A stretch of 64,000 nucleotides of DNA from Planosporangium mesophilum. GTDB taxonomy: Bacteria; Actinomycetota; Actinomycetes; Mycobacteriales; Micromonosporaceae. Where the stretch lies: positions 1 to 64,000 of the forward strand of contig NZ_BOON01000001.1 of the NCBI RefSeq assembly GCF_016863255.1, given 5' to 3'. Within the stretch, counting starts at the first letter, position 1. Every line of letters starts with the position of its first letter. The position numbers and the translations under genes are program-made. Below the pieces are notes generated by a model that saw nothing but the letters and a program-made list of their open reading frames with translations, was not told the origin of the DNA and ran no database searches. Shown one piece after another: positions 5,625 through 22,437 of the stretch.

Positions 5625-6815
5625 TCACTGGGGCGCTATCAACCGTTCCGCCTCCTTCACCACCGCGGCGGGATCAATACTCAGCCGGTGCAGCATTCGC
5701 ACCGCATCGTCATCGGCGTCGGCCAGTGCGCTCACGAATAGACGCGCGGTACCGGCGGAGACGTCCTCCTGGCCCTGAGGAGAAGCGTTCCGAGTCGCCT
5801 CCGCCGCCTGCGCCGCAGCCACTGTCCACTTCGGATGCTTCGGATTCGTCCTCCAGGCCCGGTGACGCTGCTTCGGGGCCGCGTCACCGAAGGAGGACAG
5901 CGTCGCGAGATGACGCCCGACGGAGAACGACGTGACACCACGTGCGGCCAGGATCGCCCCCGCACTACCAAGCGCGCCCACCGTCTCCGGCTCCCAAGGC
6001 CCAGCCGTCACCAATTCTTCGTGGAGCACCAAGGTAGCCAGCACAAGGTGAGCCGTCGTGACGCGTGAGTTGCCCAGCCGAACGGCCTGCCGGATCGCCT
6101 CCATCTCCATGACGTACAGGACGGGATCCGCGTCAGCAAGGCGACTTGCTCCGGCGGTCAGTATGCGCGCCAACAGACGCGAGGGGCGGGTCGCGTTCCG
6201 AGCCGGAACAACTCCGAAGGTCTGCAGGCTTTCGACTACGGGCAACCGGGGTTGGTCCTCGGCCGACACGTTCTCGTCCGCACGAGTCGCCGTCCGAACC
6301 ATCGACGGATCAACCCGGCATCGGCTCAACAGGGCGTGGGCGCGGTTGCCCGGGTCGGCAAGGATGGCGTCGAACAGGTAGCGCCTACCGGCCCAGTATC
6401 CGCCGTCATTCCCCGCCGCCACCAGCGCCCGCCGCAAGGCCTGCCGGGCATCCGGGCTCCAGGTAGTCGCCACCGGGCCTTCCCCGTGAGGCACTCCGAA
6501 GACCTGCCAGTACGCCTCGCGTAGGCCGCCGTCCACCTCCAGATCGCAATCTGAGACGGTGTCGGCAGTCACTGGTGGCGGGGAAGGCTCCGGTTGCTGT
6601 CCAGTCCTGCCGAGACCTCTGCGTAGATCCCGCATCCTCGACCCCAGCGCCATCCTCAGCCCTCCCGACCGTAAGGCCAAGGCGACAAGGAGATGGTCCG
6701 TACCCACACTCCGCGGGTGGCGTCGATCGACCAGTCGGCAGGCGCCGGTCAGCGCCCACTGGGTCGTGGCGCCTACCCGACCGAACACCTCACCTGGCGG
6801 AACCGGCATGGTCAC
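5625..6815 (-). CDS. Clp-N-repeat protein without ATPase domain (paralogue 2)
   Basis: A 396-residue protein with about four segments resembling the Clp amino-terminal repeat (Clp_N): SVGTDHLLVALAL near 37-49, RRYLFDAILAD near 143, VTTAHLVLATLV near 253 and ARLFVSALADADDD near 360. Clp_N domains bind substrates or adaptors at the front of ClpA/ClpC unfoldases. Here no Walker A or B motif follows, so the protein is not an unfoldase. It is a paralogue of 8791-9984, sharing a segment of the form EAIRQAVRLG. It is the last gene of the array downstream of the Rhs toxin, so an immunity or regulatory role is inferred. GTG 6815 or ATG 6809 may be the start; neither has a clear ribosome site. Confidence 0.65.
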   Translation of the reverse strand: MTMPVPPGEVFGRVGATTQWALTGACRLVDRRHPRSVGTDHLLVALALRSGGLRMALGSRMRDLRRGLGRTGQQPEPSPPPVTADTVSDCDLEVDGGLREAYWQVFGVPHGEGPVATTWSPDARQALRRALVAAGNDGGYWAGRRYLFDAILADPGNRAHALLSRCRVDPSMVRTATRADENVSAEDQPRLPVVESLQTFGVVPARNATRPSRLLARILTAGASRLADADPVLYVMEMEAIRQAVRLGNSRVTTAHLVLATLVLHEELVTAGPWEPETVGALGSAGAILAARGVTSFSVGRHLATLSSFGDAAPKQRHRAWRTNPKHPKWTVAAAQAAEATRNASPQGQEDVSAGTARLFVSALADADDDAVRMLHRLSIDPAAVVKEAERLIAPQ

Positions 6816-6945: not shown

Positions 6946-7356
6946 TCAGCCGTCTGACAACGGACGGTAAGCCAGTCGTTCGGCTTCGACGAGCAACGCC
7001 GCGACATCCCGGTCCGACATGGATTCCTGCCGGACCACCTCCCAGAACGTCATGATACGGATGAAGGTACGTGTGTCCACATCGATACCGTCAAGGTTGA
7101 CCCCCTCGCCGAGAGCCGCGCGAATCTCTGCCTCCGCGTCGATCTGCCGGAACTTCTCAACGGGGTACGGCTCCCGCAGGGCGGCGACGAAACGGCCGAT
7201 GTCGCGCACGTCGTGGCCGGCCGCGAAACGCTGATGAACAGCCAGCACAAAGGCGGCATCCATCACCGCCGAGCCCCGCTCCGGGTCGGGATCGTCACGG
7301 AGTCTGGTCATCTCCTCCTGGTTGTCGCGCACCATCGCGAGAAGCCACTGGGCCAT
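6946..7356 (-). CDS. Immunity-like protein of the Rhs locus, family unrecognised
   Basis: A 136-residue, acidic, apparently all-helical soluble protein (AAGHDVRDIGRFVAALRE in the middle, SDRDVAALLVEAERLA near the C-terminus). Similar small proteins are common beside actinobacterial polymorphic toxins, from memory, so an immunity role is inferred from context rather than from a motif. A 39-codon scrap of what looks like the end of a paralogue lies just upstream (7421-7540). ATG 7356 is the only good start; its ribosome site is weak. Confidence 0.6.
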   Translation of the reverse strand: MAQWLLAMVRDNQEEMTRLRDDPDPERGSAVMDAAFVLAVHQRFAAGHDVRDIGRFVAALREPYPVEKFRQIDAEAEIRAALGEGVNLDGIDVDTRTFIRIMTFWEVVRQESMSDRDVAALLVEAERLAYRPLSDG

Positions 7357-7420: not shown

Positions 7421-7540
7421 TCAATGCCGGCGGGTTCCGGGCGGCGCCTCGCCTTCCGCCTCTACCAGCAGGTCGACGATCTCCGCTGCCGACAGCCGCA
7501 GATCAGCCGCGAGGTCGAATGTCACCGCACCTATCACCAC
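7421..7540 (-). pseudogene. Probable 3' fragment of an immunity-like gene
   Basis: A short frame overlapping the end of the 7503-7997 gene reads FDLAADLRLSAAEIVDLLVEAEGE and then stops. The part DLRLSAAEIVDLLVEAE resembles the C-terminal SDRDVAALLVEAE of the intact gene at 6946-7356. I read it as the remains of a duplicated, truncated copy. It is too short for certainty, and a small expressed peptide is the alternative. Confidence 0.35.
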
Positions 7541-7997
7541 CGGCCTCCTCGAACGGGAGGCCGTCGGCGGCGTATGGCTCGCCCAACGCTCGCCACAAAT
7601 GAGGCCGGCACGGGTGTTCCCGCTCGTTCTCACCCTCCCACGTCGCGAGCGCCCGCTTCTTGCTCTCCTCGGTCGGCGTGAGGAAATGCCAGTACCCCAG
7701 CATCGCCGAGTGCGCCTCCTCATGGGTGTACGTCGTCTCCCCACCTCGCGGGCCGAGGCTCTCCACGGTGACATCGGTCGGGGTGAACCGGGTGCAGCCT
7801 GAATTGCCCTCCCACTCCCCGAAACTCGACCGGCCCGATCGGACATCCTCCACGCGGGCCAGAACATCGAGAGAGTCCGGCGCGTAGGTCTGAATGTCCG
7901 ATGCCAGCCACGAGCCGATGCCCCGGAAATGCGGGTTACTCGTCGGGGGCAAGATGAAGCCGTCTTCATCCCGAAAGAACTCGATCGGCTCGCTCAC
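7503..7997 (-). CDS. Immunity-like protein (paralogue of the 8155 gene)
   Basis: A 164-residue soluble protein with clear, roughly 60-65% similarity by eye to the product of 8155-8562. Shared blocks include GSWL(A/T)SDIQ, AYAP or TYAP, DVL, VEDVR, EWEGNS, TRFTP, VTVESL, TTYT and EAHS-ML-YW-FLTPT. It has 29 extra residues at the C-terminus. I do not recognise the family. The stop codon of an orphan toxin-tip frame sits directly before its GTG start (TAG then GTG), the usual toxin-immunity arrangement. GTG 7997 has GGGGGAG upstream. Confidence 0.7.
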   Translation of the reverse strand: MSEPIEFFRDEDGFILPPTSNPHFRGIGSWLASDIQTYAPDSLDVLARVEDVRSGRSSFGEWEGNSGCTRFTPTDVTVESLGPRGGETTYTHEEAHSAMLGYWHFLTPTEESKKRALATWEGENEREHPCRPHLWRALGEPYAADGLPFEEAGGDRCGDIRPRG

Positions 7998-8114
7998 CTA
8001 GCCACTCCCCCACTCGCGGCCCGACTCCCAGTGTTTGCCCTGCCTGTTGTAGAAGCCTTCGATGTTCAGACCGTTACCGGCCCAGGCCCATTTGTCTGGA
8101 TCCAATTTGCGAGC
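7998..8114 (-). pseudogene. Orphan C-terminal toxin-tip fragment
   Basis: After an in-frame TAG, 38 codons read like genuine protein, not random GC-rich frame: KLDPDKWAWAGNGLN then IEGFYNRQGKHWESG, stopping at TAG directly before the GTG of the 7503-7997 gene. There is no start codon or ribosome site. Rhs/WapA loci commonly keep displaced tip fragments with their cognate immunity genes, and this fits that pattern. It would be silent unless recombined onto the Rhs gene. Confidence 0.5.
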
Positions 8115-8154: not shown

Positions 8155-8562
8155 TCACCACAAATGAGGTCGGCACGGGTGCTCCCGCTCGTTCCCGCCC
8201 TCCCAGCTCGCCAGCGCCCGATTCTTCTTCTCCCCGGTCGGCGTCAGGAACTGCCAGTACTGGAGCATTACCGAGTGCGCCTCGTCAGGGGTGTACGTCG
8301 TCGACCCACCCTCCGGGCTGAGGCTCTCCACTGTGACACCGAAGGGCGTGAACCGGGTATAGCACGAGTTCCCCTCCCACTCGTCAAGAGCAGACCGACC
8401 GAACCGGACGTCCTCCACGCACGACAACACGTCGAGACAGTCCGGCGCATACGCCTGGATGTCCGACGTCAACCACGAGCCGAGGTCCCGATAGTGAGCA
8501 TCGCGACTCCTGGAGAGGACAAACCCACGCTCGTGCCGGTAAAAGTCGATCAGATCAGTCAT
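8155..8562 (-). CDS. Immunity-like protein (paralogue of the 7503 gene)
   Basis: A 135-residue soluble protein, tandem paralogue of the product of 7503-7997. It ends at the shared HPCRPHLW, where the neighbour continues for 29 residues. Acidic, no membrane segment, unknown family. ATG 8562 is preceded by AAGGA at suitable spacing; a TTG one codon earlier is less likely. The upstream 90 bases hold a possible decayed toxin tip. Its position in the array after Rhs suggests an immunity function (inference). Confidence 0.7.
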   Translation of the reverse strand: MTDLIDFYRHERGFVLSRSRDAHYRDLGSWLTSDIQAYAPDCLDVLSCVEDVRFGRSALDEWEGNSCYTRFTPFGVTVESLSPEGGSTTYTPDEAHSVMLQYWQFLTPTGEKKNRALASWEGGNEREHPCRPHLW

Positions 8563-8696
8563 CAAAATCCTTCATCAGCGGCCACCCCGAGCTCCAGTGG
8601 CTGGGGACCGGCAACAGCCTTGAGGTCGAGGGTTTCCATAACACGCAACGCAGCCGGCATCAGAGACAACCGTTGACCGGATGCCCGGTTGATTCC

Positions 8697-8790: not shown

Positions 8791-9984
8791 TCATCTGCCG
8801 GCCAAGGCCGCGTTGACAGCGTCCCGTACCACCCGCAGTTCTACTCCGGACAGCCGGAAGATCGAATAGAGGTCATCGTCCGGCGCCTCGAGGACCGCGG
8901 CGATGAGATGATCGGTACCGACATGGGCGTGGCCCACTCGGGAAGTGATGGCCTTCGCCCGGTCCCGTGCCCGGACCGCGTCGACGGTCCAGGGAGGCCC
9001 GCGGCGCCCGGTACGCGGGCTCTCCGGTGCGAGATCGCGGCCGCTGTCGCCCGCCAGATCGGCCGCCTCGACCGCGAGGTCCCGGTACGCCACCCGGTTG
9101 CGCAGGATCCTTACGGCTTCGTTGTGCGGTGCAAGGTCCGCCCGAAGGGTGGCACCGCGTACCGCAAGCTGATCCTCCAGTGAGGACACCGCGAGCACCA
9201 GATGCGCGGGCGTGACGCACTGATGGCCGAGCCGGACCGCTTGCCGGTTCGCCTCGGCGTCCAGCGCGTGCAGGATGGGCCCCGCATCGGTGCGTCTGAC
9301 TATGTGCGCACGCACTACGGCGGCAATGACCCGTACCGGCCACGAAGCGCCGCTGACGAGTCCGACGGCTCGCAGCAGATCCAGGGTCGGCGTCCACGGC
9401 CGAACATAGGTGCGCAGGGCTCCATCCTGTCTCAACCGCCGGACCAGCTCGCGCGCGTCGACCCCGCCTCGATCCATCAGCTCCCGGGCACGGCTGCCTT
9501 CGATGCCGAGCAGCGCGACCAGCAGACGCGCGACGTTGACGTACGCCACCCCTTCAGCATGGGCGTCGGCAACCGCCAGCCGCACGGCGGCCCGTACCGC
9601 GCCGCTCCACTCCGGCATCGGGCGCGACCCCTGGTCGGAATCCTTCCCACCGCGCGCGCCCCAGGATTGCCAGGCGGCTTCGTGCAGCGCCGCCGCCGCG
9701 CCCAGATCCACCTCGTGCGAGGCGGCGACGCCCGGATCGAGGTCCGGGCTGGCCCAGCCGCCGTCGTGGGGCCGATCACCGTCCGCGCGCCGTAGCGCAC
9801 GGACAGCCTCGGCGACGCTCGGTTGGGAACGCGCCAGGCGATCGAGGCATTCGCGGAGCACCACATCCGTTCCCACGGTCTGGGCGCCCGTTTTGGCCGC
9901 AGTGCGGTAACAGGCGGCGAGCGTGCCCGTCACCCCGCTACCGATGGAGGGGACCCAGACCATCACCATGCTCGCCTCGATCAT
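8791..9984 (-). CDS. Clp-N-repeat protein coupled to the Rhs toxin (paralogue 1)
   Basis: A 397-residue protein with about four Clp_N-like segments: TVGTDVVLREC near 36, YVNVARLLVALLG near 147, CVTPAHLVLAVSSL near 247 and HVGTDHLIAAVLEAPDDD near 358. The last one best matches the ClpC N-domain pattern, a GT(D/E)HLL core followed by a VELRVVRDAV tail. There is no AAA+ module or Walker motif. The ATG at 9984 overlaps the Rhs stop codon (ATGA) and uses GGAAGAG inside the Rhs frame, so translation should be coupled to the toxin. That position is where a cognate immunity gene is expected; a chaperone or toxin-release role is the alternative. Confidence 0.7.
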   Translation of the reverse strand: MIEASMVMVWVPSIGSGVTGTLAACYRTAAKTGAQTVGTDVVLRECLDRLARSQPSVAEAVRALRRADGDRPHDGGWASPDLDPGVAASHEVDLGAAAALHEAAWQSWGARGGKDSDQGSRPMPEWSGAVRAAVRLAVADAHAEGVAYVNVARLLVALLGIEGSRARELMDRGGVDARELVRRLRQDGALRTYVRPWTPTLDLLRAVGLVSGASWPVRVIAAVVRAHIVRRTDAGPILHALDAEANRQAVRLGHQCVTPAHLVLAVSSLEDQLAVRGATLRADLAPHNEAVRILRNRVAYRDLAVEAADLAGDSGRDLAPESPRTGRRGPPWTVDAVRARDRAKAITSRVGHAHVGTDHLIAAVLEAPDDDLYSIFRLSGVELRVVRDAVNAALAGR

Positions 9985-12900
9985 CTCTTCCCGCGCCGGC
10001 CCACGATGACTCGTTGACCCATCTCGAGGACGTAACCGGCAACCTTTAGCACGGGTGCTGCCCATGATGGTTTGTCCGAGCCCAGTCCCGTCGCCAGGTT
10101 ATCGAGCGTCTCACCGAGTTTGCCCCCCGGCTCCACACCGCCCTGGGCGCTCACCAGATCCGGTCTGATCTTGTCAATAGCGTTGAGCCGGCCGTGACGG
10201 CCTCTTTCAGGAGCTGCGTGCCGGGGCGAGTAGTCGCCTTCGTCCGCGCGGTGGGTACCTTCGTAGCCCGGGTCGTCCGTGCGGTGCGCGCCGGTGTAGC
10301 TCTTGCCGCAGTTGTGGACCAGTACCGACGTGTTCGCCGCGACGACGTAGTACGTGTGGTCACCGTCGACGGTCAGGTTGTAGACGCGCTGGTCGTGAGC
10401 GGTCCACCGGTTGACGGCCGTGACCTGGACGTACGTCCCCGCCGACGTCCGCAGCAGCGAGCCGACCCGCAGCTCGGTGGCGTCGACCCACCTGTCCAGA
10501 TCCTCGACCCAGAACGGGTGGTGGTCGGTCGCCACGATGACCCCGGTCCCGTCACCACCGGTTCCATCGGTGTCGACGGTGACCTCGACCAGGTTCTTGT
10601 CGCCCTGCCCGACGATGGTGTCCACGACCGGGCGGGCCTCGCTCTCACCCGTCGACGGGTCGGTGGCCAGCACCTGGTCGCCGATCTCCACCTGATCGAT
10701 CGGCTTCTGGCTGCCATCTGCCATCAGCACCGCCGTGCCCGGGGCGAAGCTGTTGCTCTCCAGGCAGCCCTCGCCGGCCCTGGCTGCGCTCGCGCCGCCG
10801 GACCGGCCCGCTCCGCTGAGCAGGCCCCCGCTCAGCTTGCCGCTGACCATGCTGCCGAGTTCGGCGCGCGCGGCGGAGACGCCCTCGCTGATCGCGGCCC
10901 TGGCACCGCCGCTCAGGGCCCGTACGCCGGCGCCGAGGGCCTGGCCCCCGATCGAGCCCAGCCCACCGGTCAAGCCGCCGATCGCGCCCTGGGTAACGGC
11001 GTTGCCGAGCATCTCCTTCCAGCCGTGACCGCCCTCGACCATGTCGTGGACGATCGAGCCGACCGCGCCCGCGAGCGCGCCACAGGCGACCGCGCCGACG
11101 CCGGTCCAGCCGATCAGGGCGCCGCAGCCGAGGCCGACGATGGCCCCCGCGGCGAACCCCGCGATGGTCGCCGCGTGGGTCTCCACGAAGTCCCCGACGG
11201 CGCTGGCGGCCTTGGAGAGGGTGTCCAGCAGCGGGCCGGCGGCCTCGACCGCCTTGTTGTAGAGGTTCTGTACCGACTTGTAGCCGTCGTTGACGACGTC
11301 GCGGACGGTGGACACCACCGCGGCGGGCAGGTGCGCGGCCGCGGAGACCACCGTCTTGAGCCCGGTGTACAGCGGCTTGACGGCGGCCGCCAGCGCAGGC
11401 AGCGGGCTGTGCTTGATGGCGTACGAGACCGCCTGCTTGGCCTGCGCGGTGATCTGTTTTGCCTTGGCCACCGCCGCGGCCCGGACCTGCTCGGCCTTGT
11501 CCTTGGCCCAGTTGGTGAAGCCCTTGTCCCGGATCTGTTGCACCTGGTTGGAGACCCAGTGGACGGCGGTGCTGATGGCGCTGGCGGCCTTGTCGATCAG
11601 CCACCGGGCGCCGTCCAGCAGGGCGTTCCCGGCCGCCTTGAGGCCGGACCAGACCGCCGAGGCGCCCGCCACGATGGCGTTGCCGACGGCCTTGGCGCCG
11701 GAGACGATCGCGTTGCCGACCTTCTTGAGCCACTTGGGCCAGTGCCCGTCCGGGTCGCTGGCGTCCAGCGGGTCGCCACCGGCGTACGTGTACCGGTTGG
11801 CCAGGATGGACTCCCCGCCGGTGTAGTCGACCGAGTCCCGCGAGACGAAGGTGGCGGAGCCGGGGTCGTACCACCGGGCGCCCATGTCGACCTGGCCGGT
11901 GCCCGGATCGGTCCAGTCGCCCTGGAAACCGATCCGGCCGGTGTCGCCGCTGCGCGCGGTGACCTGGCCGAACGGGTCGTACGTGGTCGACTCGGCCGGC
12001 GTGGTCGGGCTCGCGTCGGCCGGGTCGAGGGCGGCCACGACGTCGCCGTGCTGGTCGGCCAGGGTCAGCCTCTTCGTCTTGCCCGTCGAGACGGCCAGCA
12101 GGTCGTCGGCCGGTCCACGGGCATACGTCTCGGTGCCGTCGGAGACCGGGTTGTCGGTGGCGTCGGCGTAGCTGAACGGGGTCCCGTTCCGGCTGGCGAC
12201 CCGGTCCAGGCCGTCGTAGGTGTAGTTCTGCCCGGCACCGGAGACCAGCCGGTCGAACGCGTCGAACGAGTACCGCTCGGTCAGCCCCGAGCTGGTCCGC
12301 GACGCGAGAGTGCCCCGGGCCGTGTACGCGTAGGTGTAGTCGCCGTCGGAGAGCAGGCGGTTGCGCTCGTCGTACCGGGCGGTCTTCGGGCCAGCCTGCA
12401 CCCGGTTGCCGGAGTCGTCCCAGCCGTACGCCGTGCTGCCGCCCGGCCCGGTCCAGGAGGTGAGCCGGCCCGCGAAGTCGTAGCCGTAGGTGTTGTCACC
12501 CGCTCCGGCGACGCCGGCCGTCGTCTTGCGCGTCAGATGGTTGCCGAGGTCGTAGCCGTACCCGACGGACGCGACCGTCTGTCCGGCGGCGTTGCGCAGG
12601 GTGTCCGAGGCGACCCGTCCCAGGTTGTCGTACTCGTACGTGCGCACCCGGCCGGCGCCGTAGTCGACGGTCTTGAACTGGCCGGCCGCGTCGTACCCGA
12701 CGGTCTGCTTGGTGCTGGTGAGCGCGTCGGTCAGCGTCGCCAACCGCCCCCTGCTGTACGTGTAGCTGGTCGTGCCGGCGGCGTCGGCCCGGGAGGTGAG
12801 CCGGCCGTCCTGGTCGTAGGAGAAGGTGCCCGACCCGGCCGGTCCGGCGGCGGTGAGCAGCGCGCCACGGTCGTTGTAGGCGTACGTGTTCGTACCGCTC

Positions 12901-15900
12901 GGCGTGCTGACCTTCGTCAGCCGGCCGGCCAGGTCGTAACCCAGGCTCCGCGCGGCGGTCGCCGACTCGGCGCCGCTGCCGGTCTCGCCGGTCAACCGGC
13001 CGGCCGCGTCGTACGCGCGCTGCCGGGTGACACCGCCGGGCGCGGCGAGGGTGACCGCCTGCCCGGCCGCGTCGTACCCGACCGTCCAGGTCCGGTCCGC
13101 GGCGTTCGGCTGCGGCGCCGTCGACGGTTCGATCACGGATTCGGGCAGGCCGAGGCTGTTGACCCCGAAGATGGTCGAGTTGCCGCGGCCGTCGCTGTAG
13201 CGGGTGCGGTTACCGGCCGCGTCGTAGCCGAACGTCGTGGTGATCGACCTGCCGTCGCTGACCGGCTCCACCTGCTTGACGAGCTGGTTCGCCGCGTCGT
13301 AGGTGTAGCTGGTGGTGTGGTTCAGCGGATCGGTCGACGAGGCCAGGTTGCCGACCGGGTCATAGCCGTAGCGCTGGCTGCGCAGCACGGTGCCGTCGGG
13401 CGCGAGATCCGATTCGCTGGAGACGCGGCCGAAACCGTCGTGGGAGGTGACGGACGCCCGCCCGAGCGCGTCCACGGTGCGCACGTTGCGGCCGGCGAAG
13501 TCGTAGCCCATTTCGGTGCTGACTCCGGCCGGGTCGGTGGCCTTGATCAGCTCTCCGACCGCGTCGTACACGTTGACGGTGGTCTCACCGCCGGGCGTCA
13601 CCATGCTGGTCAGGTTGTTGGCGTCGTCGTAGCCGAACTTCGTGGTGAAGGTGTCGGCGACGGGCTTGCGCTCCACCTGGGTGAGGGTCACCTTGCGGTC
13701 GAGGTCGTCGTAGGTCGTCTCGACCCGCGCGCCGGTCGGGTCGGTGACCGACAGGAGTTCGCCGGTGCGGGTGTACGTGTACCGCCACACCGCCCGCTCG
13801 TCGTTGGTGGTGCCCGGCTCGTCCCGGCTCACCATCCGGTTGAGCCGGTCGTACCCGTAGCGGGTGCTGTTGCCCAGCGGGTCGACGGTCTCGACCAGGT
13901 TACCGAGCCCGTCGTAGCTGGACCTGGTGACCGGGATGACCGGGCTGCCGCCTGGCGGGGTGTACGTGGGCTCAGTCACGGTCACCGGGCGGCCGAGCTT
14001 GTCGTACCCGGTGCGGGTGACGTTGCCCAGCTCGTCCTTGCTCGCGACCGCCTCGTCGAAGGCGTTGTAGCCGGTCACCTGGGTCGGCCGCACCGTCTGC
14101 GGCGCCCCGCCGCCGCTCTCCGCCGCGACCGGCGGCCCGATCGCCGTGACCAGGCGCCCCGCCTCGTCGTAGCTGAAGGTCGACGTGTACGCCGCCGGGT
14201 CGGCACCGGTCGCCGTGCCCCGCGCGTCGGTGGTGGAGGTGAGCAGCCCCCGCTGGTCGTACGCGTACGAGGTGACCTGGCTGGTGCCGTCGCCGAGCAC
14301 CGTCCGGGTCCTGACCAGTCCGTCGTCGCCGTAGGCGTAGCTGACGACCTCGCTGCCGCCCGCGTCGAAGCCGGGAACGTTGGAGGACTTGCCCGTCGTG
14401 GTGGATTTGGTGACGTTCCCGTTGAGGTCGTACTCGAAGCTGGTGGTGCGCGCCAGGCCGCCGGGATCGGTGACGGTGGACACGACCTCCCCGTTCCTGC
14501 CGACCGCCTGCGAGGTGGTGAGCTTGCCGTTTCCGGCCACCTGCTTGATCCGGTTACCCGCCCCGTCGTAGGTGTCCGTTTCGATGACGTAGTCACGGGT
14601 CGTGCCGTCCGGGTTGTGCAACTTCTTCAGGACCGAGCTCTTGAGCAGGTCGTCGTCGTAGTACTGGTACTCGATCCGGCGGCCCATGGCGTCGGTGTCG
14701 CTGGCCAGACGCCCGGCGTAGTCGTACGAGTAGGAGTGCAGCACCAGGTAGTCGGCGCCGGGGGTCGGGTCGCCCGAGCCCTTCGGATCCCCGTTCCACG
14801 AACGCAGCCGGATCTCGGCGACGGAGTTGCGCGCGGTGTACGCGTAGTCGTACCGGTTCTCGTTGGCGTCCACGATGGACGTCTTGTTGCCGAACAGGTC
14901 GTACTCGTACGTCGTCTCCTGACCTTCGGCGTCGACCACCCGGCGCTGGTGCCCGTGGCTGTCGTACTCCATCGTCGTGGTCCTGGTCGGGTCGCCGCCG
15001 AGCAGATCGCTCACGTCGACCTGGACCAGGTTGCCGTCTTCGTCGTAGGTGTTGGTGACTCTGCGCTGGTGGCGTACTCCGGTGACGGCGTCGGTGGTCG
15101 CCGGTTCGGTGACGGTCTTCAGCCGGGACGCGTAGTCGTACGTGAAGGTGGTCACCACACCGGCCGGGAAGCTGTCGGAGCTCTCCTTCTTGGAGATACT
15201 GCGCCCCAGCTCGTCGTACGTACTCTCGACGACGAGGCCGGTCGGCTTCGTCACCCGGCCCAGATCGCCGTTGGAGTAATAGGCGTAGCTGGTGACCCGG
15301 TTGCGGGCGTCGGTGGTGGTGAGCGGCAGGCCGGCCGGCGTGAGGCCACCGTTGATGCCCGACGCGTTCGCGCCGTTGGTGTACGTGTGCCTGATGAAGC
15401 TGCCGTCCGGGTTGGTCTGGGTGTCGAGCTTGCCGGTCGGCGTGTAGGTGTAGCGGGTCCGGTAGGTGTTGTCGGTGGCGCTGGCCGAACGCCCGTCCCG
15501 CTGCTCGGTCGGCAGCTGGTTACGCGGGTCGAACGGGTTGGCCGACGCGGCCGGGTAGGTCCAGTACGTGGTGTAGCACTCGTTGCTGCTGGCGTCGCGG
15601 CAGGTCTTGCGCGACGTCACGTTGCCGCGATCGTCGAAGGTCTGCGTCACCTGGTCGCCGTTCTCGTTGGTGACGACGTCCTGGAAGCCCTGCTCGTTGT
15701 AGGAGAAGCTGCGGATCGCCATCCCGTTCAAGGGGTGGTTGACGAAGACCGGACCGCCCGAGTCTCCCGGGATCACCGTGCAGAACGAGGGGTCGTTGGG
15801 GTCGGGCTTGCTGCACGTCGGCGTCGGTGATGGTGACGGGGTCGGCGACGGGGTCGAGCCGGGGCGGTCCTCGTCCCGGATCTCCAGCCCCAGCGGGGTA

Positions 15901-18900
15901 CCCGAGCGCAGCATCCGCCCGGCGATCGCGTCGTACTCGTACAGGTTGGGCCGGTTGGCCGGGTCGAGCACCTGCACGCTGCGGCGCAGGTCGCTGTCGC
16001 CGCCGTACACCGCCGGCGCGCCGATCTTCCAGGTGCCGCCGTTGCGGTCGGTGTAGCGCTGGACCCGGTCCAGGTTTCCGTCGTACGACACCTCGGCGGC
16101 CACCCGGCCGCTGGGCAGCGTCACCTTGGTCATCTCGTCGGCGGCGGCCGTACCCAGCCGGTAGTGCGCGCTCGCCGCCACCGGCCCGAGCGGGTGCGAG
16201 TACACCGCGACCTCGTCGATGACGCCGTTGAAGTACCGCTGGGCGGTGCTGCCCCAGTTCGGCCAGGAGGCGGGCGTGCTGGCGTACGCCGCGCCGATCT
16301 GGTTGAACGTCAGCAGGGAGCTGTCGACCGTGCCGCCGGTCACCTCGCCGGACCTGGCCCCGTCGACGTACAGCGTCTGGGTCGAGCCGGTCACCGACAA
16401 CACGACGTGGTGCCACTTCCCGTCGTTGACCGGTCCGGAGGACACCACCGGTGCGATGGCTCCGGTGGCGAACTGGCCGCGTACCTTGCCGTCGGTGCCG
16501 ACGTACAGGATCGGCACGCCGGTGGTGGACGCTTTGCCCAGCGCGGCGTCCTGGTAACCCAGCAGCGGCCCACCGGTGCTGGTCAGCGGCGTCTTGAACC
16601 ACAGCTCGACGGCCGCGTCGCGGCTCTTCTTCAGCAGGCCCTTCGGTAGCTCCAGATAGGACGAACTGCCGTTGAACGTCGCCGCGGTGTTGCCCGCACC
16701 GGCGAGCGCGCCGGCCGCGCCGAGCGTGACGTTCTTGTAGGTGCCGGCGTCCTTGCCGAGGTTGACCGCGACGTCGCTACCGGCGCCCGTCCCCTGCGAC
16801 TCGCCCAGCCGCCAGTACGACTCGGGCTTGGAGTCGGTCACCGCGCTGCGGTAGTGCGAACCGGCGGTGTAGTCGTACTTCGTGCAGGCGCTGTCCGGCG
16901 CGCAGACCTTCGTGAGCAGGTCACCGGTGTACATGTACGTCCAGGCCAGCGGCGCGCCGCCGACCGGGTCGGTGGTGATGCTGCCGATGTGCCCGCCCGA
17001 CCAGTTGAACGTCAGCGACCGGCCGGCGGTGTTGGTCTGGCTGTTGGAGACCTGCGCCTTGGCCAGCTTGCCGGTGGCGGAGTCGTAGCTGTACACCACC
17101 GACCGGCCGTCCGCGTCGGTGACCTTCATCAGCCGGCCGGAGGCGGAGAACTGGTACGTGGTCGCCGACTTGTCGAGCAGCTTCCAGTACGAGCCGTCGA
17201 ACGTCAGGGAGGCGACCCGCCCCGGCGGGGCGGCGTAGCTGCCGTCGGGGTTGCGGCCGAACCGCACCTGCTGCCCGTCCTGGTAGGTGATCACGACGTT
17301 TCCGGACCCGTCGTCATCGGCGAGCAGCCGCATGTCGTACCGGCTCGTCCAGCCCGCGCCGAAGGCGGCGTCGCGGCGCGGATCGAGGCTGTTGTAGGTG
17401 CGCACCAGCGACAGGTCGGGTCCGGCCGTGGTGGGCGCGGCGTCGACCGCCGCGGTGCTGAAGTTGCCGACCTGGGGGTCGAACTCCTTGTCCTTGGTTC
17501 CGTAGGGCGCCGCCGCGATCCGGGAGGTGATCTCGGGCTGCGGTACCGCGGCGATCAGCGCCGAGTACGGCGAGGGCACCTCGTTGCCGGTGTCCTTGGC
17601 GAAGACCCGCCACAGGTAGGTCTTGGACCAGGCCAGCCGGCCGGCCGGGACCGTCCACGCCTGACTGGCGAGGTACCCCGAGTTGGTGCAGCCGACCGGG
17701 TTGCCGCCCGCATCGCGGTCGCAGACCTCGTACTTGAACTGCAGGCTCGATCCGGGCGGCGCGTCGATGTCGAGCGCGCGCGCCCACAATTGCGGGGTCA
17801 GGGTCGGCGTCTGGTACCCGTTCGGCGGGTACAGCTCCTGCACCACCGGCGGGATGTCGAAGACCTGAAGCACGATCCGGCCCGGCGGCACCTGGTGGTC
17901 GGTGAAGACCGCGCCGCCGGTGCGCACCATGGTGAAGTCGATGAAGTACCTGCCCGGCGGCATCGCCGAGATCGTGGCGTCGAACGTGACCTTGCCACCG
18001 CGCGGCACCGAGGCGGTCAGGTTCGCGGCGCGCTGCTGGCCCGCCGGCTCGCCCTTGTCCACGTTGTACGCGCGGTAGGCGAGGTAGTAGTCGCTCGGGG
18101 CCCAGGCGTCGGCGCTCAGGTTCGTCACCGTGACCTTGACCTTGCCGGCCTGGTTCTGCAGCACCGGCGGGTCGGGTACCGGGTTGGGGATCTCGTAGCT
18201 CGCGTTGTACGGGCTGTGCGTGACGAACAGCGAGGGGGCGTTGGCGGTGCGGCTGCCGGCGAACGTCTTCCACGCCAGCGCGTCGGTGGTGGAGGCGCGC
18301 AGCGACAGGCCGTAGTTGGCCTGGGTGCCGTCGACCCAGCGCTGCACCAGCGAGGCGCCGGCCCCGCCCAGGTCGAACAGCTCGCCCGCGGCCGGACACG
18401 ACGACCGGGACTGCCCCTGCGCGATGTAGCCGTGCGCGAACGACCGCTCGGCCAGGGCGCCCCCGACCCCCGGGCCAGGGTAGGAGTACCCCGTGCCGGG
18501 CGTCCACGCCGCGGTCACCGGATGGACGCTGACCGGTCGCGCCCGGCAGCTCGGCCCGTCGTAGTTCACGACCTGTAGCTGCGCGCCGAAGATGGTGTGG
18601 TTGCGCAGCCGGTTGACCAGACCGTCGAACTTCAGGTACGAGGCCGCCGGCACCCCACCGACATTGCCGACCATCAGGTCGGACGGGTTCGCGATCGAGC
18701 TGCTGCCGTGTACGAGCATGCTGCCGTCGGGGGTACTCGAGTCGACCGGCGGGCCGACGGTCGGGTCCAGCATCACCGGGTACACCCGGGCCGGGTCGCG
18801 CAGCCAGGCGGAGTCCAGGGTCACCTGGAGCGCCGGCCGGCCGCCCTCGGTCACGAGCTGGTACGTCACGCCCGTCGACGTGGCCGGGCCCGCCTCCGCC

Positions 18901-19814
18901 GTCCCTGAGTCCATGAGGTACCCGGCCGGGATCGCCGCCCGCTGCCGGCCTGACGCGTCGGTCAGCACGACCTGGCCGCCGGCCACCTTCGCCGACAGGC
19001 CGGAGAGGTGGAGCGGGAACCGGTACGAGTGCGGGGCCTGCGGCGAGCGCAGGACCAGTGTCTCCTTCACCTGGCCCGGGCCAGCCTGCAGCCGCAGGTC
19101 CACCTGGTCGAGCACGTTCGGGTACGTCACGGTGTCACCGTCCGCCCGCCCGCCGGCGGATGCGGCGCCATCGAGCCCGAACCCGACGGCCTGGCCGGAC
19201 CCGACGCCGACCCGTGCGAGCTCCGTGGCGTCGGCGCTGGCCGCCAGCCGCACCTCGGACCCGCCGTCGCCGCTGTGCCAGCCGCCTCCGGGCAGCGGCG
19301 ACAGCGCGGAGTCGACGGGCTTCCAGCTACCGTCGGGCTGCCTGACGTTGAGCGGCGTGGCGGAGAACTGAGTGGTCCGGGTGCCGTCCGGGTTGTCGTA
19401 CGTGCGCTCGTAGACGCCTCGCGCGGCCACGTCCTCCCGGGATGCCGCCTGGTCGAATCCGTGTGGCTGGTTTCCGGTCGTCTTCGCCACCGTCGCCGTA
19501 TTGTGTGCGGCTGCCGGCGTGTCGTTCAGCTTGTGTGGCGGGTACTGGCCCCGCAGCGACACGGGCACGGTCCGGTTGCCCGGGGAGCCGGTCAGGTGCC
19601 CCTGGCCGGCGGCCGAACCCCAGCGCTGGGCCGGAGCCGGCGTCGCGCGGTGCCGGGGAGTGGAAGTACCGCCGGCCGGCATGGCACGCATGCCGTCACC
19701 GGACGAGCTCGCCAGCAGCACCGCCGCGAGCGCGAAGGCGGTCCAGCGCACAGTCCATGGTGGACGCGTCCACTTGGGAGGACGCAGGAACGAAGGGACG
19801 TCTAGCCTGTTCAT
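9981..19814 (-). CDS. Giant secreted Rhs/YD-repeat polymorphic toxin with HINT domain
   Basis: A 3277-residue protein. Approximate residues: 1-45 basic region and hydrophobic signal segment; 370-525 DNRLRE-type domain; 1060-1220 LamG/concanavalin-like domain; long tracts of YD repeats (Y-D-x2-G-R/N-L) from about 900 to 2600; 2650-2690 Rhs core ending DMGARWYDPG and FVSRDS; 3018-3168 HINT autoprotease domain, from FAPGTAVLMADGS to VLVHNC; 3169-3277 toxin tip of no recognised family. In known systems the YD shell encapsulates the tip, which is cleaved and delivered into neighbouring cells. ATG 19814 has GGGGAG upstream; an upstream in-frame start would add 63 unrelated residues. It lies 198 bp after the lectin gene on the same strand, with a similar leader, and overlaps the next gene by ATGA. 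Confidence 0.9.
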   Translation of the reverse strand: MNRLDVPSFLRPPKWTRPPWTVRWTAFALAAVLLASSSGDGMRAMPAGGTSTPRHRATPAPAQRWGSAAGQGHLTGSPGNRTVPVSLRGQYPPHKLNDTPAAAHNTATVAKTTGNQPHGFDQAASREDVAARGVYERTYDNPDGTRTTQFSATPLNVRQPDGSWKPVDSALSPLPGGGWHSGDGGSEVRLAASADATELARVGVGSGQAVGFGLDGAASAGGRADGDTVTYPNVLDQVDLRLQAGPGQVKETLVLRSPQAPHSYRFPLHLSGLSAKVAGGQVVLTDASGRQRAAIPAGYLMDSGTAEAGPATSTGVTYQLVTEGGRPALQVTLDSAWLRDPARVYPVMLDPTVGPPVDSSTPDGSMLVHGSSSIANPSDLMVGNVGGVPAASYLKFDGLVNRLRNHTIFGAQLQVVNYDGPSCRARPVSVHPVTAAWTPGTGYSYPGPGVGGALAERSFAHGYIAQGQSRSSCPAAGELFDLGGAGASLVQRWVDGTQANYGLSLRASTTDALAWKTFAGSRTANAPSLFVTHSPYNASYEIPNPVPDPPVLQNQAGKVKVTVTNLSADAWAPSDYYLAYRAYNVDKGEPAGQQRAANLTASVPRGGKVTFDATISAMPPGRYFIDFTMVRTGGAVFTDHQVPPGRIVLQVFDIPPVVQELYPPNGYQTPTLTPQLWARALDIDAPPGSSLQFKYEVCDRDAGGNPVGCTNSGYLASQAWTVPAGRLAWSKTYLWRVFAKDTGNEVPSPYSALIAAVPQPEITSRIAAAPYGTKDKEFDPQVGNFSTAAVDAAPTTAGPDLSLVRTYNSLDPRRDAAFGAGWTSRYDMRLLADDDGSGNVVITYQDGQQVRFGRNPDGSYAAPPGRVASLTFDGSYWKLLDKSATTYQFSASGRLMKVTDADGRSVVYSYDSATGKLAKAQVSNSQTNTAGRSLTFNWSGGHIGSITTDPVGGAPLAWTYMYTGDLLTKVCAPDSACTKYDYTAGSHYRSAVTDSKPESYWRLGESQGTGAGSDVAVNLGKDAGTYKNVTLGAAGALAGAGNTAATFNGSSSYLELPKGLLKKSRDAAVELWFKTPLTSTGGPLLGYQDAALGKASTTGVPILYVGTDGKVRGQFATGAIAPVVSSGPVNDGKWHHVVLSVTGSTQTLYVDGARSGEVTGGTVDSSLLTFNQIGAAYASTPASWPNWGSTAQRYFNGVIDEVAVYSHPLGPVAASAHYRLGTAAADEMTKVTLPSGRVAAEVSYDGNLDRVQRYTDRNGGTWKIGAPAVYGGDSDLRRSVQVLDPANRPNLYEYDAIAGRMLRSGTPLGLEIRDEDRPGSTPSPTPSPSPTPTCSKPDPNDPSFCTVIPGDSGGPVFVNHPLNGMAIRSFSYNEQGFQDVVTNENGDQVTQTFDDRGNVTSRKTCRDASSNECYTTYWTYPAASANPFDPRNQLPTEQRDGRSASATDNTYRTRYTYTPTGKLDTQTNPDGSFIRHTYTNGANASGINGGLTPAGLPLTTTDARNRVTSYAYYSNGDLGRVTKPTGLVVESTYDELGRSISKKESSDSFPAGVVTTFTYDYASRLKTVTEPATTDAVTGVRHQRRVTNTYDEDGNLVQVDVSDLLGGDPTRTTTMEYDSHGHQRRVVDAEGQETTYEYDLFGNKTSIVDANENRYDYAYTARNSVAEIRLRSWNGDPKGSGDPTPGADYLVLHSYSYDYAGRLASDTDAMGRRIEYQYYDDDLLKSSVLKKLHNPDGTTRDYVIETDTYDGAGNRIKQVAGNGKLTTSQAVGRNGEVVSTVTDPGGLARTTSFEYDLNGNVTKSTTTGKSSNVPGFDAGGSEVVSYAYGDDGLVRTRTVLGDGTSQVTSYAYDQRGLLTSTTDARGTATGADPAAYTSTFSYDEAGRLVTAIGPPVAAESGGGAPQTVRPTQVTGYNAFDEAVASKDELGNVTRTGYDKLGRPVTVTEPTYTPPGGSPVIPVTRSSYDGLGNLVETVDPLGNSTRYGYDRLNRMVSRDEPGTTNDERAVWRYTYTRTGELLSVTDPTGARVETTYDDLDRKVTLTQVERKPVADTFTTKFGYDDANNLTSMVTPGGETTVNVYDAVGELIKATDPAGVSTEMGYDFAGRNVRTVDALGRASVTSHDGFGRVSSESDLAPDGTVLRSQRYGYDPVGNLASSTDPLNHTTSYTYDAANQLVKQVEPVSDGRSITTTFGYDAAGNRTRYSDGRGNSTIFGVNSLGLPESVIEPSTAPQPNAADRTWTVGYDAAGQAVTLAAPGGVTRQRAYDAAGRLTGETGSGAESATAARSLGYDLAGRLTKVSTPSGTNTYAYNDRGALLTAAGPAGSGTFSYDQDGRLTSRADAAGTTSYTYSRGRLATLTDALTSTKQTVGYDAAGQFKTVDYGAGRVRTYEYDNLGRVASDTLRNAAGQTVASVGYGYDLGNHLTRKTTAGVAGAGDNTYGYDFAGRLTSWTGPGGSTAYGWDDSGNRVQAGPKTARYDERNRLLSDGDYTYAYTARGTLASRTSSGLTERYSFDAFDRLVSGAGQNYTYDGLDRVASRNGTPFSYADATDNPVSDGTETYARGPADDLLAVSTGKTKRLTLADQHGDVVAALDPADASPTTPAESTTYDPFGQVTARSGDTGRIGFQGDWTDPGTGQVDMGARWYDPGSATFVSRDSVDYTGGESILANRYTYAGGDPLDASDPDGHWPKWLKKVGNAIVSGAKAVGNAIVAGASAVWSGLKAAGNALLDGARWLIDKAASAISTAVHWVSNQVQQIRDKGFTNWAKDKAEQVRAAAVAKAKQITAQAKQAVSYAIKHSPLPALAAAVKPLYTGLKTVVSAAAHLPAAVVSTVRDVVNDGYKSVQNLYNKAVEAAGPLLDTLSKAASAVGDFVETHAATIAGFAAGAIVGLGCGALIGWTGVGAVACGALAGAVGSIVHDMVEGGHGWKEMLGNAVTQGAIGGLTGGLGSIGGQALGAGVRALSGGARAAISEGVSAARAELGSMVSGKLSGGLLSGAGRSGGASAARAGEGCLESNSFAPGTAVLMADGSQKPIDQVEIGDQVLATDPSTGESEARPVVDTIVGQGDKNLVEVTVDTDGTGGDGTGVIVATDHHPFWVEDLDRWVDATELRVGSLLRTSAGTYVQVTAVNRWTAHDQRVYNLTVDGDHTYYVVAANTSVLVHNCGKSYTGAHRTDDPGYEGTHRADEGDYSPRHAAPERGRHGRLNAIDKIRPDLVSAQGGVEPGGKLGETLDNLATGLGSDKPSWAAPVLKVAGYVLEMGQRVIVGRRGKR

Positions 19815-20012: not shown

Positions 20013-22271
20013 TCAGGCCGGCGGCTTGGGCATCGACCGGCCGTTGAAGAACGGCGTCCGACTGGTCGCCGACGGGGCCGTCCCCGCCGCCGCCGCGGCC
20101 GGAGCGGACAGCTTGCGTTCGTAGACGCGGGTGGTGTCGTTGGTGTTGCGGAACACGATGTACCAGGTTTCCCCGCTCGCGTTGGTCACCGGCGCGACCG
20201 TCGGATCGGTGGCTGCCGGATCGGAGAACGTCGGATCGGACGGGTTGAGCGCCCGCCCCCACGTCCCCCACTCGCTGGTGTCCTGCCCGGTCTCCCACAA
20301 CACGTAGATCTCGTTGTCGGTACCTCGGGCCACCACCGCCGTGCGGCCCAGTACCGGGTCCAGGATCGCCACCGGCGCGCCCGCCGCGGTGAACGCACCC
20401 GTCGACTGCCAGGACGCCGGCCACGCCCCGCCGTTGTCCTGGATCATCGTCGCGATCGAGCCGTCTGCGGCCCGAACGAACAGCCGCAGCCGGTACCCCG
20501 GATACACCACCACCGACGGCGCGCCCGTCGACCCGGACGCGCCCAGGTTCAACCAGTCCGACAGCGACCCCGACACCTCGTAGCCCGCGGTACGCAGCAT
20601 CCCCGAGGTGTCCCGCGCGAACAACTGCAGCCCCGTCTGGCTCGGCGCGACCGCCGGCGCCCCGGCAACCCGCAGGCTGCCCACAGCGGCCCAGATGCCG
20701 TACCCGCCGTTGACGGCGGTCTGCTGGTTGGCGAACAGCACACCGTCACCGTCCACGGCGAACAGCACGATCCGGCCGTCCGGCAGGGTTCCGCTGGTGA
20801 CGTCCGACGTCACCCAGCCACCGGCGTCCTTCCAACCCGCCCACGACGGGATGCTCGGATCCTGCTGAGTCACCGTCCCCACGTCACCGTCGGTCTTGTG
20901 TCCGGCCACCTGCAACCGGCCGTCCGGCTGCTGGGTCAACGCCGGCGGACCCGTGTACGCGTCCGCGGCCGGCGACAGCGTCGACCAGGCCGTGAACGCC
21001 GTCGAGTCGGGATCGCCCTGCGCGTACCGCAGCCGCCCGAGGTTGTCCACATAGGAGTACTCGACCATCCCCACCCGGGCGCCGTTCGTCGGCGCCAACT
21101 GCATCACCGACGACCGTGAGTACCGCTGGACCGGTATCGACTGCCACCGGGAGAACGCGTGCGCCGGCCCCGACCAGGCGCTGTTCTGGAACGTCGCCTG
21201 CAACACGTCGGAGCGCGATCCGGTCGAGAACACGTCCACGCGGCCGGCTCCCATCGACGCCACCGCCGGGGCGGAGTTCAGCGTGCCACCGATGCTCGAC
21301 CCCGGCTGCCACGCACCGTTGTTGTGCGAGACGTGCCAGAGCGCGTTGTCGGTGCCCCGCGCGACGACGTCGAAGCGGCCGGCGGCCCACGACGTCACCG
21401 ACGGCGCCGAGTTGACCGATCCGCCCAGGCTGCTCATGTTGTACCAGGCGCCGGCGGTGTCCATCCAAGAGTGCCACACCGCGTTGTCCGTACCGCGCAC
21501 GAAGACGTCGTAGTGGTTGGTTGACCACGAGCCGACCGACACCGCCGAGGCGACCGTGGTCGAGGCGGGCAGCAGCTTCCACGGTTGCCAGGAGCCGCTC
21601 ACGAGATAGCTGTGGTACAGCCGGCCGTCGGTGTAGCTGGCGAAGACATCGGCACAGTTGACGTTACACACCGCGACCACCGGCGCGGTGGTCACCTTCC
21701 CAGGGGTCAGTTGCGCCATGGTGGACCAGCCGGACGAGCCGAGCGTGGTGTGCCACACCGTGCCGTCGGCCTTGCTCCGCGCGACGACCTCCATGTGACC
21801 GGCACCCCACGATGCCACCGACGGCGCGGTGTCGATGGCCACCGAGCCGGGCAGCTTGGCCCACGGCTGCCAGGCACCGCCGCTGATCCAGGTGTGCCAG
21901 AGCATGTCGTCGGTACCGCGGGCGAACACGTCGAATTGATCCGGCCCGAGCGAGCCCACCGCGGGCGTCGAGGCCAACTGCCCGCCCAGGTCCTCCCAGC
22001 CCGACCACCGCCCGTCGCGGAACGCCCGGTGGTGCAGCGCCCGGTCCGCACCCACCGTGAACAGGTCCAGACGCCCCGGCGCCACCGACTTGACCACAAC
22101 CTCGGGACCGTCGTTCGGGTCCACCGCCAGCGGAGCGGCCTGAGCCGGACCCACCGGCACCACCAACGCCACCAGCGCGACCAGGACGGCGACCGCCCCC
22201 ATGCCCGCCAACACCCGCCTCGGGCGGGCTAACCGCGGGCGCCGCCCACGAGACTTCCCTGCACTAAACAT
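20013..22271 (-). CDS. Secreted PLL-type beta-propeller lectin-like protein
   Basis: A 752-residue protein. Residues 1-45 are a long basic n-region and hydrophobic helix ending GPAQA, a Sec signal peptide. The rest is built of about 45-50-residue blades with recurring DVFARGTDN-L-H, then W and SAPAVASMGAGR-type strings, as in the bacterial PLL/fucose-binding lectin propellers. The second half has more divergent blades and may be a second propeller. It is the gene before Rhs on the same strand and has a similar leader, so it may help the producing cell or toxin bind glycans on targets (inference). ATG 22271 follows CTGGGGAG. Confidence 0.75.
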   Translation of the reverse strand: MFSAGKSRGRRPRLARPRRVLAGMGAVAVLVALVALVVPVGPAQAAPLAVDPNDGPEVVVKSVAPGRLDLFTVGADRALHHRAFRDGRWSGWEDLGGQLASTPAVGSLGPDQFDVFARGTDDMLWHTWISGGAWQPWAKLPGSVAIDTAPSVASWGAGHMEVVARSKADGTVWHTTLGSSGWSTMAQLTPGKVTTAPVVAVCNVNCADVFASYTDGRLYHSYLVSGSWQPWKLLPASTTVASAVSVGSWSTNHYDVFVRGTDNAVWHSWMDTAGAWYNMSSLGGSVNSAPSVTSWAAGRFDVVARGTDNALWHVSHNNGAWQPGSSIGGTLNSAPAVASMGAGRVDVFSTGSRSDVLQATFQNSAWSGPAHAFSRWQSIPVQRYSRSSVMQLAPTNGARVGMVEYSYVDNLGRLRYAQGDPDSTAFTAWSTLSPAADAYTGPPALTQQPDGRLQVAGHKTDGDVGTVTQQDPSIPSWAGWKDAGGWVTSDVTSGTLPDGRIVLFAVDGDGVLFANQQTAVNGGYGIWAAVGSLRVAGAPAVAPSQTGLQLFARDTSGMLRTAGYEVSGSLSDWLNLGASGSTGAPSVVVYPGYRLRLFVRAADGSIATMIQDNGGAWPASWQSTGAFTAAGAPVAILDPVLGRTAVVARGTDNEIYVLWETGQDTSEWGTWGRALNPSDPTFSDPAATDPTVAPVTNASGETWYIVFRNTNDTTRVYERKLSAPAAAAAGTAPSATSRTPFFNGRSMPKPPA

Positions 22272-22437
22272 AGATTCTCCCCAGTAATGCGCATGTCCTC
22301 GGACCGCGCGCCGCCCGAATCCCGTTGTGACCACGGCAAGCCAGGCCGTGGGCACCGGGCCCGGATTGGTTGTACGAACTGGTTGCACGAGCCGCCACGG
22401 AGTCTCGACGCGGCGACGCTCTCCGGAGCGAAGGGCG

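Follow-up and report, generated by a model that had tools for sequence, protein, structure and literature searches.

Why should a gene for Clp N-terminal domains without an ATPase stand directly behind an Rhs toxin gene, in the very place where the immunity gene of such a toxin would be expected? The question is raised by a stretch of 64,000 nucleotides from the soil-type actinomycete Planosporangium mesophilum (contig NZ_BOON01000001.1, positions 1 to 64,000; hereafter the window). We approach it through the make-up of the two genes, the recurrence of their pairing in other genomes, and a short motif that the paired toxin tips have in common.

Results

A tandem Clp N-domain protein behind an Rhs toxin

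The features on which the argument rests all lie on the minus strand:

5625..6815, minus strand: second tandem Clp_N protein, 396 aa, an orphan without a tip, 31% identical to the first
6946..7356, minus strand: 136-aa ORF inside the array, for which family searches gave no significant match
7503..7997, minus strand: EndoU-immunity-like gene, copy 2, 164 aa, with relatives behind EndoU frames
8001..8114, minus strand: remnant of 38 aa, similar to the last part of an EndoU tip
8155..8565, minus strand: EndoU-immunity-like gene, copy 1, 67% identical to copy 2
8791..9984, minus strand: protein of 397 aa with two Clp N-domains in tandem and without AAA+ (Pfam, structure prediction); likely the cognate immunity protein
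9967..9984, minus strand: stop/start junction, with the ATGA overlap at 9981-9984, an alternative ATG at 9967-9969 and GAGG at 9975-9978
9981..19814, minus strand: Rhs/YD-repeat protein, 3277 aa (translation and Pfam)
9984..10310, minus strand: C-terminal tip of the Rhs protein, 109 aa, with two Y-x-G-x-H-R motifs (family searches and model)
10248-10265 and 10281-10298, minus strand: the two motifs of the tip, YEGTHR and YTGAHR, respectively
10311..10727, minus strand: PT-HINT self-cleavage domain (PF07591), followed by the C of VLVHNC

The arrangement had been noted in a sequence-only reading of the locus and was confirmed here: the Rhs protein of 3277 residues carries a HINT domain, and its stop codon is overlapped through ATGA by a gene whose product has no AAA+ module. 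From its N-terminus, the Rhs protein consists of a hydrophobic stretch, which by eye is an apparent signal or anchor, a laminin-G-like domain, RHS repeats, the C-terminal HINT domain and a variable tip. In Pfam, the repeats (PF05593) score 321 bits over 19 stretches and PF07591 scores 69.2 bits, above its cut-off, with the variable tip following HN, as is characteristic of HINT-Rhs proteins. Directly upstream of this gene, a gene for 791 residues (20013-22388) partly resembles a beta-propeller lectin domain, at 106.6 bits and below the cut-off of 200.

The partner of 397 residues matches Clp_N (PF02861) with 48.7 bits against a curated cut-off of 20.7, and its predicted model contains two Clp N-domains in tandem; both results bear out the fold that the sequence-only reading had assigned to it. 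Neither its translation nor Pfam reveals an AAA+ module, which places it outside the ClpC, ClpB and ClpA ATPases. In its four repeats, the glutamate of the GTEH motif, which we take to be the phospho-arginine contact of the Clp N-domain, is D or A. In ClpC itself these contacts are presumably E32 and E106, an assignment for which a search of literature passages gave no confirmation.

The tip, in turn, matches no named toxin family in Pfam, NCBIfam, PADLOC or PHROGs, and none was found in plasmids. Its structure prediction is mostly disordered (pLDDT 43.6) and of no use as a model; the disorder fits a docking peptide and also a shallow alignment. Five weak genome matches were considered as homologues of the tip and found unconvincing, none having the motif described below or a Clp_N gene nearby. 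In one of the five, the start of a frame that we read as PadR-like (L074:7638-7955) is 45% identical to the end of the tip over 38 residues, with E 9e-7 within that region, a likeness that is either chance or a recombination scar.

Rhs genes are usually trailed by displaced tips and orphan immunity genes. The genes behind the window's Rhs gene look like such a trail, the Clp_N paralogue at 5625..6815 included, with the two EndoU-immunity-like copies and the 136-residue ORF standing between the two tandem Clp_N genes. Among 91 genomes searched, the small genes have 10 relatives outside the window, two of which (L202 and L209) lie directly behind frames that match the bacterial EndoU nuclease PF14436 with 62.3 and 60.5 bits; the other eight were seen as frames and left unclassified, and HINT was found at none of the 10 loci. 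The 38-residue remnant, which taken alone has no Pfam match, is 44% identical over 25 residues to the EndoU frame of L202 (E 1.9e-4 in a two-sequence comparison).

The pair recurs with different tips and backbones

Relatives of the partner were found in 40 of 350 genomes of the same family, which we take from its Actinoplanes and Salinispora members to be Micromonosporaceae, the window's genome included, at a threshold of E 1e-8 or better, and a class-wide search returned 7 of 394 genomes, among them the window's and one already known. The set considered here thus comprises 45 places outside the window and five from the class-wide search, that is 50 places in 48 regions. Nine of these 50 relatives stand directly behind a toxin-like C-terminus. 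At four loci (L041, L042, L050 and L062) a HINT and a tip of family A precede the Clp_N gene with a gap of 20-34 nt; at L042, where the contig begins 243 bases upstream, only end pieces of the HINT were seen, in two frames and with no HINT match. Tip B precedes Clp_N with an ATGA overlap at three more (L038, L039 and L040), on an Rhs core or a displaced piece without HINT, a whole Rhs-type gene being seen only in L040. L103 presents Rhs, HINT and a third tip, with the Clp_N gene 11 nt behind. Finally, at L057 a Clp_N tandem gene lies 4 nt behind a TcA-like protein (L057:2-8330, cut by the region edge) with ABC_toxin_N, a neuraminidase-like domain and eight hemopexin stretches, by which the tandem family may possibly be linked to large toxins of another kind. 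The stop of the toxin overlaps the start of the Clp_N gene at four loci, the window counted.

A profile of tip A that includes the window tip finds five of 354 genomes, namely the four others and the window's, and in all five the Clp_N gene is next; a scan of genomes with the alignment of tip-A partners likewise returned four loci (two Actinoplanes, one Salinispora and one Paractinoplanes), none of them additional. Scored on a model built from the four other tip-A tips, the window tip reaches 5.5 bits, which is marginal given that at least 10 of 2000 shuffles score higher. For the third tip, the 350 genomes yielded itself (E 1e-87) and seven matches with E 0.003-0.009, with no clear relative among them. 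Within the limits applied, plasmids contained neither partner nor tip-A proteins.

No toxin signal (HINT, Rhs repeats, tip A or B) was seen beside the remaining 41 of the 50 relatives, a figure for which neighbouring frames were read in part, which other kinds of toxin could escape and which includes two loci (L043 and L063) that meet a contig end. The five new class-wide loci, with no HINT, Rhs or tip A/B signal around them, are among these. A neighbourhood that recurs at L095, L096 and L097, which belong to two further families of the class, has a response-regulator-like gene (by eye) some 1.5 kb away from the Clp_N relative and no toxin signal, and at L053 a transposase-like frame stands upstream of the relative (by eye). 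The sequence-only reading had staked its proposal on homologues not lying mostly away from toxin loci, and with 41 of 50 showing no toxin signal it is half contradicted on this point. The survey of Rhs loci for Clp_N proteins at the +1 position that it had suggested finds them behind several tip types. In the background, Clp_N was found in the 1.5-2.5 kb seen downstream of 0 of 70 sampled HINT loci, these being top-scoring matches (30 plus 40 from the head of the list) and not a random draw.

How partners travel can be read from identities and from the tree. The HINT domains of L041 and L050 are 47% and their tips 64% identical, and those of the window and L050 are 61% and 38% identical, respectively; since HINT and tip identities disagree among the three, tips swap between backbones. 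The tip-A partners fall into a starred clade of nine rows, the other five of which (L057, L061, L053 and two more) have no adjoining tip A, and the tip-B partners form a starred clade of their own. At four tip-A and three tip-B loci, the Clp_N gene therefore behaves as an immunity gene would, following immediately on the tip and travelling together with it. The window's orphan paralogue clusters with the tip-A partners. The partners of the window and L103 lie outside both clades, and the nearest tree relatives of the window partner have no toxin linkage in the sequence examined. A single clade of all ten toxin-linked proteins, a group chosen by linkage and not from the tree, is rejected (p-AU 2.5e-44), and neither the window and L103 partners as sisters (p 0.085) nor the window partner with tip B (p 0.052) is rejected.

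A motif shared by the paired HINT tips

The motif Y-x-G-x-H-[RH], defined after the paired tips had been seen, occurs 11 times in six paired HINT tips (two in the window tip, four in L103, one or two in each tip-A member), against a shuffle mean of 0.04 and with 0 of 20000 shuffles reaching 11. Five of 80 HINT-tip rows carry it, Clp_N-linked in 5/5 cases and, with the tip of L042 (entered by hand, outside the 80 rows), in 6/6. It is absent from the 73 other distinct tips, 72 of which come from the 70 background loci and one of which is the second HINT tip of L062. Fisher's test of 6 versus 74 tips, before two duplicate tips were dropped, gives 3e-9; because the tip-A tips share the motif by descent, the independent comparison is that of three tip types with 73 tips, for which our own arithmetic gives about 1.4e-5. 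Of 741 called frames of the fetched loci (overlaps included), 14 carry the motif, nine of them being tip-bearing frames or repeats, and over all frames it occurs 23 times as compared with 1 or 2 in shuffles. Outside tips the motif also turns up by chance, for instance within the L041 HINT and in a single Clp_N protein, that of L049. Tip-B tips lack the motif, so that one ligand cannot explain all pairs; beyond the motif, family searches found no known family for the paired tips.

We also compared the partners with the ligand site of ClpC. F80 and E89 of ClpC1, which we mapped from spacing, the ClpC start in the window's own genome and the named residues of ClpC2, fall on W332 and [DE]341 of the partners, and by the same alignment F172 and E181 of ClpC2 fall on W332 and D341 of the window partner; no counterpart of F2, nor of the position of ClpC2 F96, was established by alignment. 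W332 is present in 9 of 10 toxin-linked partners (L057 included) and D/E341 in 10 of 10; among all 32 proteins the numbers are 17 and 20, respectively. This enrichment is in part due to shared descent. According to the portion of PMC9240326 available to us, cyclomarin binds in a pocket separate from the phospho-arginine sites, which counts against assigning the tip to one face.

Discussion

The pairing of Rhs toxins with Clp_N genes is real and recurrent. That the partner is the cognate of the toxin, as the sequence-only reading had supposed, gains support from the recurrence of the pair with other tips and backbones, from the paralogue's place within an apparent array of immunity genes and from the motif of the paired tips. 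From gene order and sequence relationships we consider that the tandem Clp_N protein is probably the cognate immunity protein of the HINT-Rhs toxin, acting by direct binding of the tip. Cleavage by HINT between HN and C, as its family suggests, would free the tip of 109 residues, which would be toxic; in the producer and its kin, the Clp_N protein from the adjoining gene would then bind this tip via the peptide-binding faces of its N-domains.

Why the immunity protein should have this particular fold is a separate matter. Clp N-domains bind peptides and dock adaptors and substrates, and the natural products cyclomarin, rufomycin, ecumicin and lassomycin attack the N-domain of ClpC. The likeliest single reason for the fold would be that the N-domain of ClpC is the target of the tip: once released, the tip could dock there via Y-x-G-x-H-R and deregulate ClpC, the partner serving as a soluble tandem decoy of the target. 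Natural cyclic peptides that bind the ClpC1 N-domain cause toxic, uncontrolled proteolysis (PMC12583610, in the part available), and the available part of PMC10030653 describes how ClpC2, a Clp N-domain protein without an ATPase, binds cyclomarin and lowers its toxicity, its authors suggesting that ClpC2 may guard against other ClpC1-targeting toxins. A tip acting on ClpC, with immunity conferred by ClpC-like docking domains, would be the logic of cyclomarin and ClpC2 in protein form. The conservation of W332 and [DE]341 speaks for a decoy, which is weakened because the GTEH glutamate is D or A and because tip B lacks the motif; on balance we hold immunity to be the probable function and the ClpC decoy, with the mimicry of ClpC's receiving face that the sequence-only reading had put forward, to be a tentative inference.

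About equally tentative is the proposal that the partner is indeed the cognate immunity protein, with the Clp_N fold serving as a versatile helical scaffold fitted to unrelated toxins and the tip directed at a target unconnected with ClpC. At least three unlike tip types have such partners, and one partner stands behind a TcA-like protein; tip B, besides lacking the motif, looks membrane-active (a long hydrophobic stretch, by eye); and the loss of the GTEH glutamate extends to all four repeats. A scaffold would, however, leave unexplained why three Clp_N-paired HINT tip types have in common a motif that is absent from 73 other tips. It is rather unlikely that the partner acts as an adaptor or escort, keeping hold of the tip or of the unfolded C-terminal part of the Rhs protein until export, or passing a stray tip to ClpCP to be degraded. 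The docking of adaptors and substrates by Clp N-domains is what such an escort would exploit, but the orphan paralogue in the apparent immunity array and the tip-specific partner clades suit immunity better, and we know of no cytosolic escort for a protein with an apparent signal or anchor like that of the Rhs protein. The holdase role suggested for ClpC2 (PMC10030653, in the part available) would fit an escort as well. Least probable of all is an ordinary stress protein or regulator, a self-repressor like ClpC2 (which represses its own transcription according to the same part of PMC10030653), placed behind the toxin by chance: most relatives seem to stand alone and some lie near a response-regulator gene, but nine adjoin toxin C-termini on several Rhs backbones, with four stop/start overlaps if the window is counted, an adjacency that seems, by judgement and not computation, far above chance given 1-10 HINT genes per positive genome.

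A HINT-Rhs toxin-immunity system with Clp_N in the immunity role, for which the mechanism proposed here is unusual, is not described in the literature searched: titles and the beginnings of abstracts yielded no tie of Clp_N proteins to Rhs immunity, and PMC7159879, in the part available, names ClpN repeats in connection with another conflict system only. Should the pairing prove functional, the docking domain of a protease has been turned into an immunity protein, and the short motif provides a handle on what these unnamed tips bind. If, moreover, ClpC is the target, a genetically encoded and delivered protein would strike the same domain as do cyclomarin, rufomycin, ecumicin and lassomycin, and there would be an ecological reason for actinomycetes to have Clp_N proteins without an ATPase, a point that PMC10030653 (in the part available) poses as a question. 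If the decoy reading is true, some bacteria may turn on the protein-degradation machinery of others and shield themselves with a decoy of it.

How does this system compare with known ones? With HINT-Rhs polymorphic toxins it shares the RHS repeats, PT-HINT, the short variable tip, the +1 gene and the downstream array with EndoU-immunity-like copies; it differs in that the immunity position holds a tandem Clp N-domain protein. The plant proteins ClpT1 and ClpT2, known for a double Clp-N motif, have a single N-domain and are part of the chloroplast ClpP complex, in contrast to the toxin-linked tandem described here. From the N-terminal domain of ClpC and ClpC1, the partner differs in the absence of AAA+ rings, in its two N-domains in tandem and in the loss of the GTEH glutamate. 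Mycobacterial ClpC2 is likewise a Clp N-domain protein without an ATPase, and the window partner would resemble it in acting by binding a ligand of ClpC1; however, in ClpC2 a single Clp N-domain follows a four-helix dimerisation domain, and the protein regulates itself (PMC10030653, in the part available), whereas the window partner has two Clp N-domains and is linked to a toxin gene.
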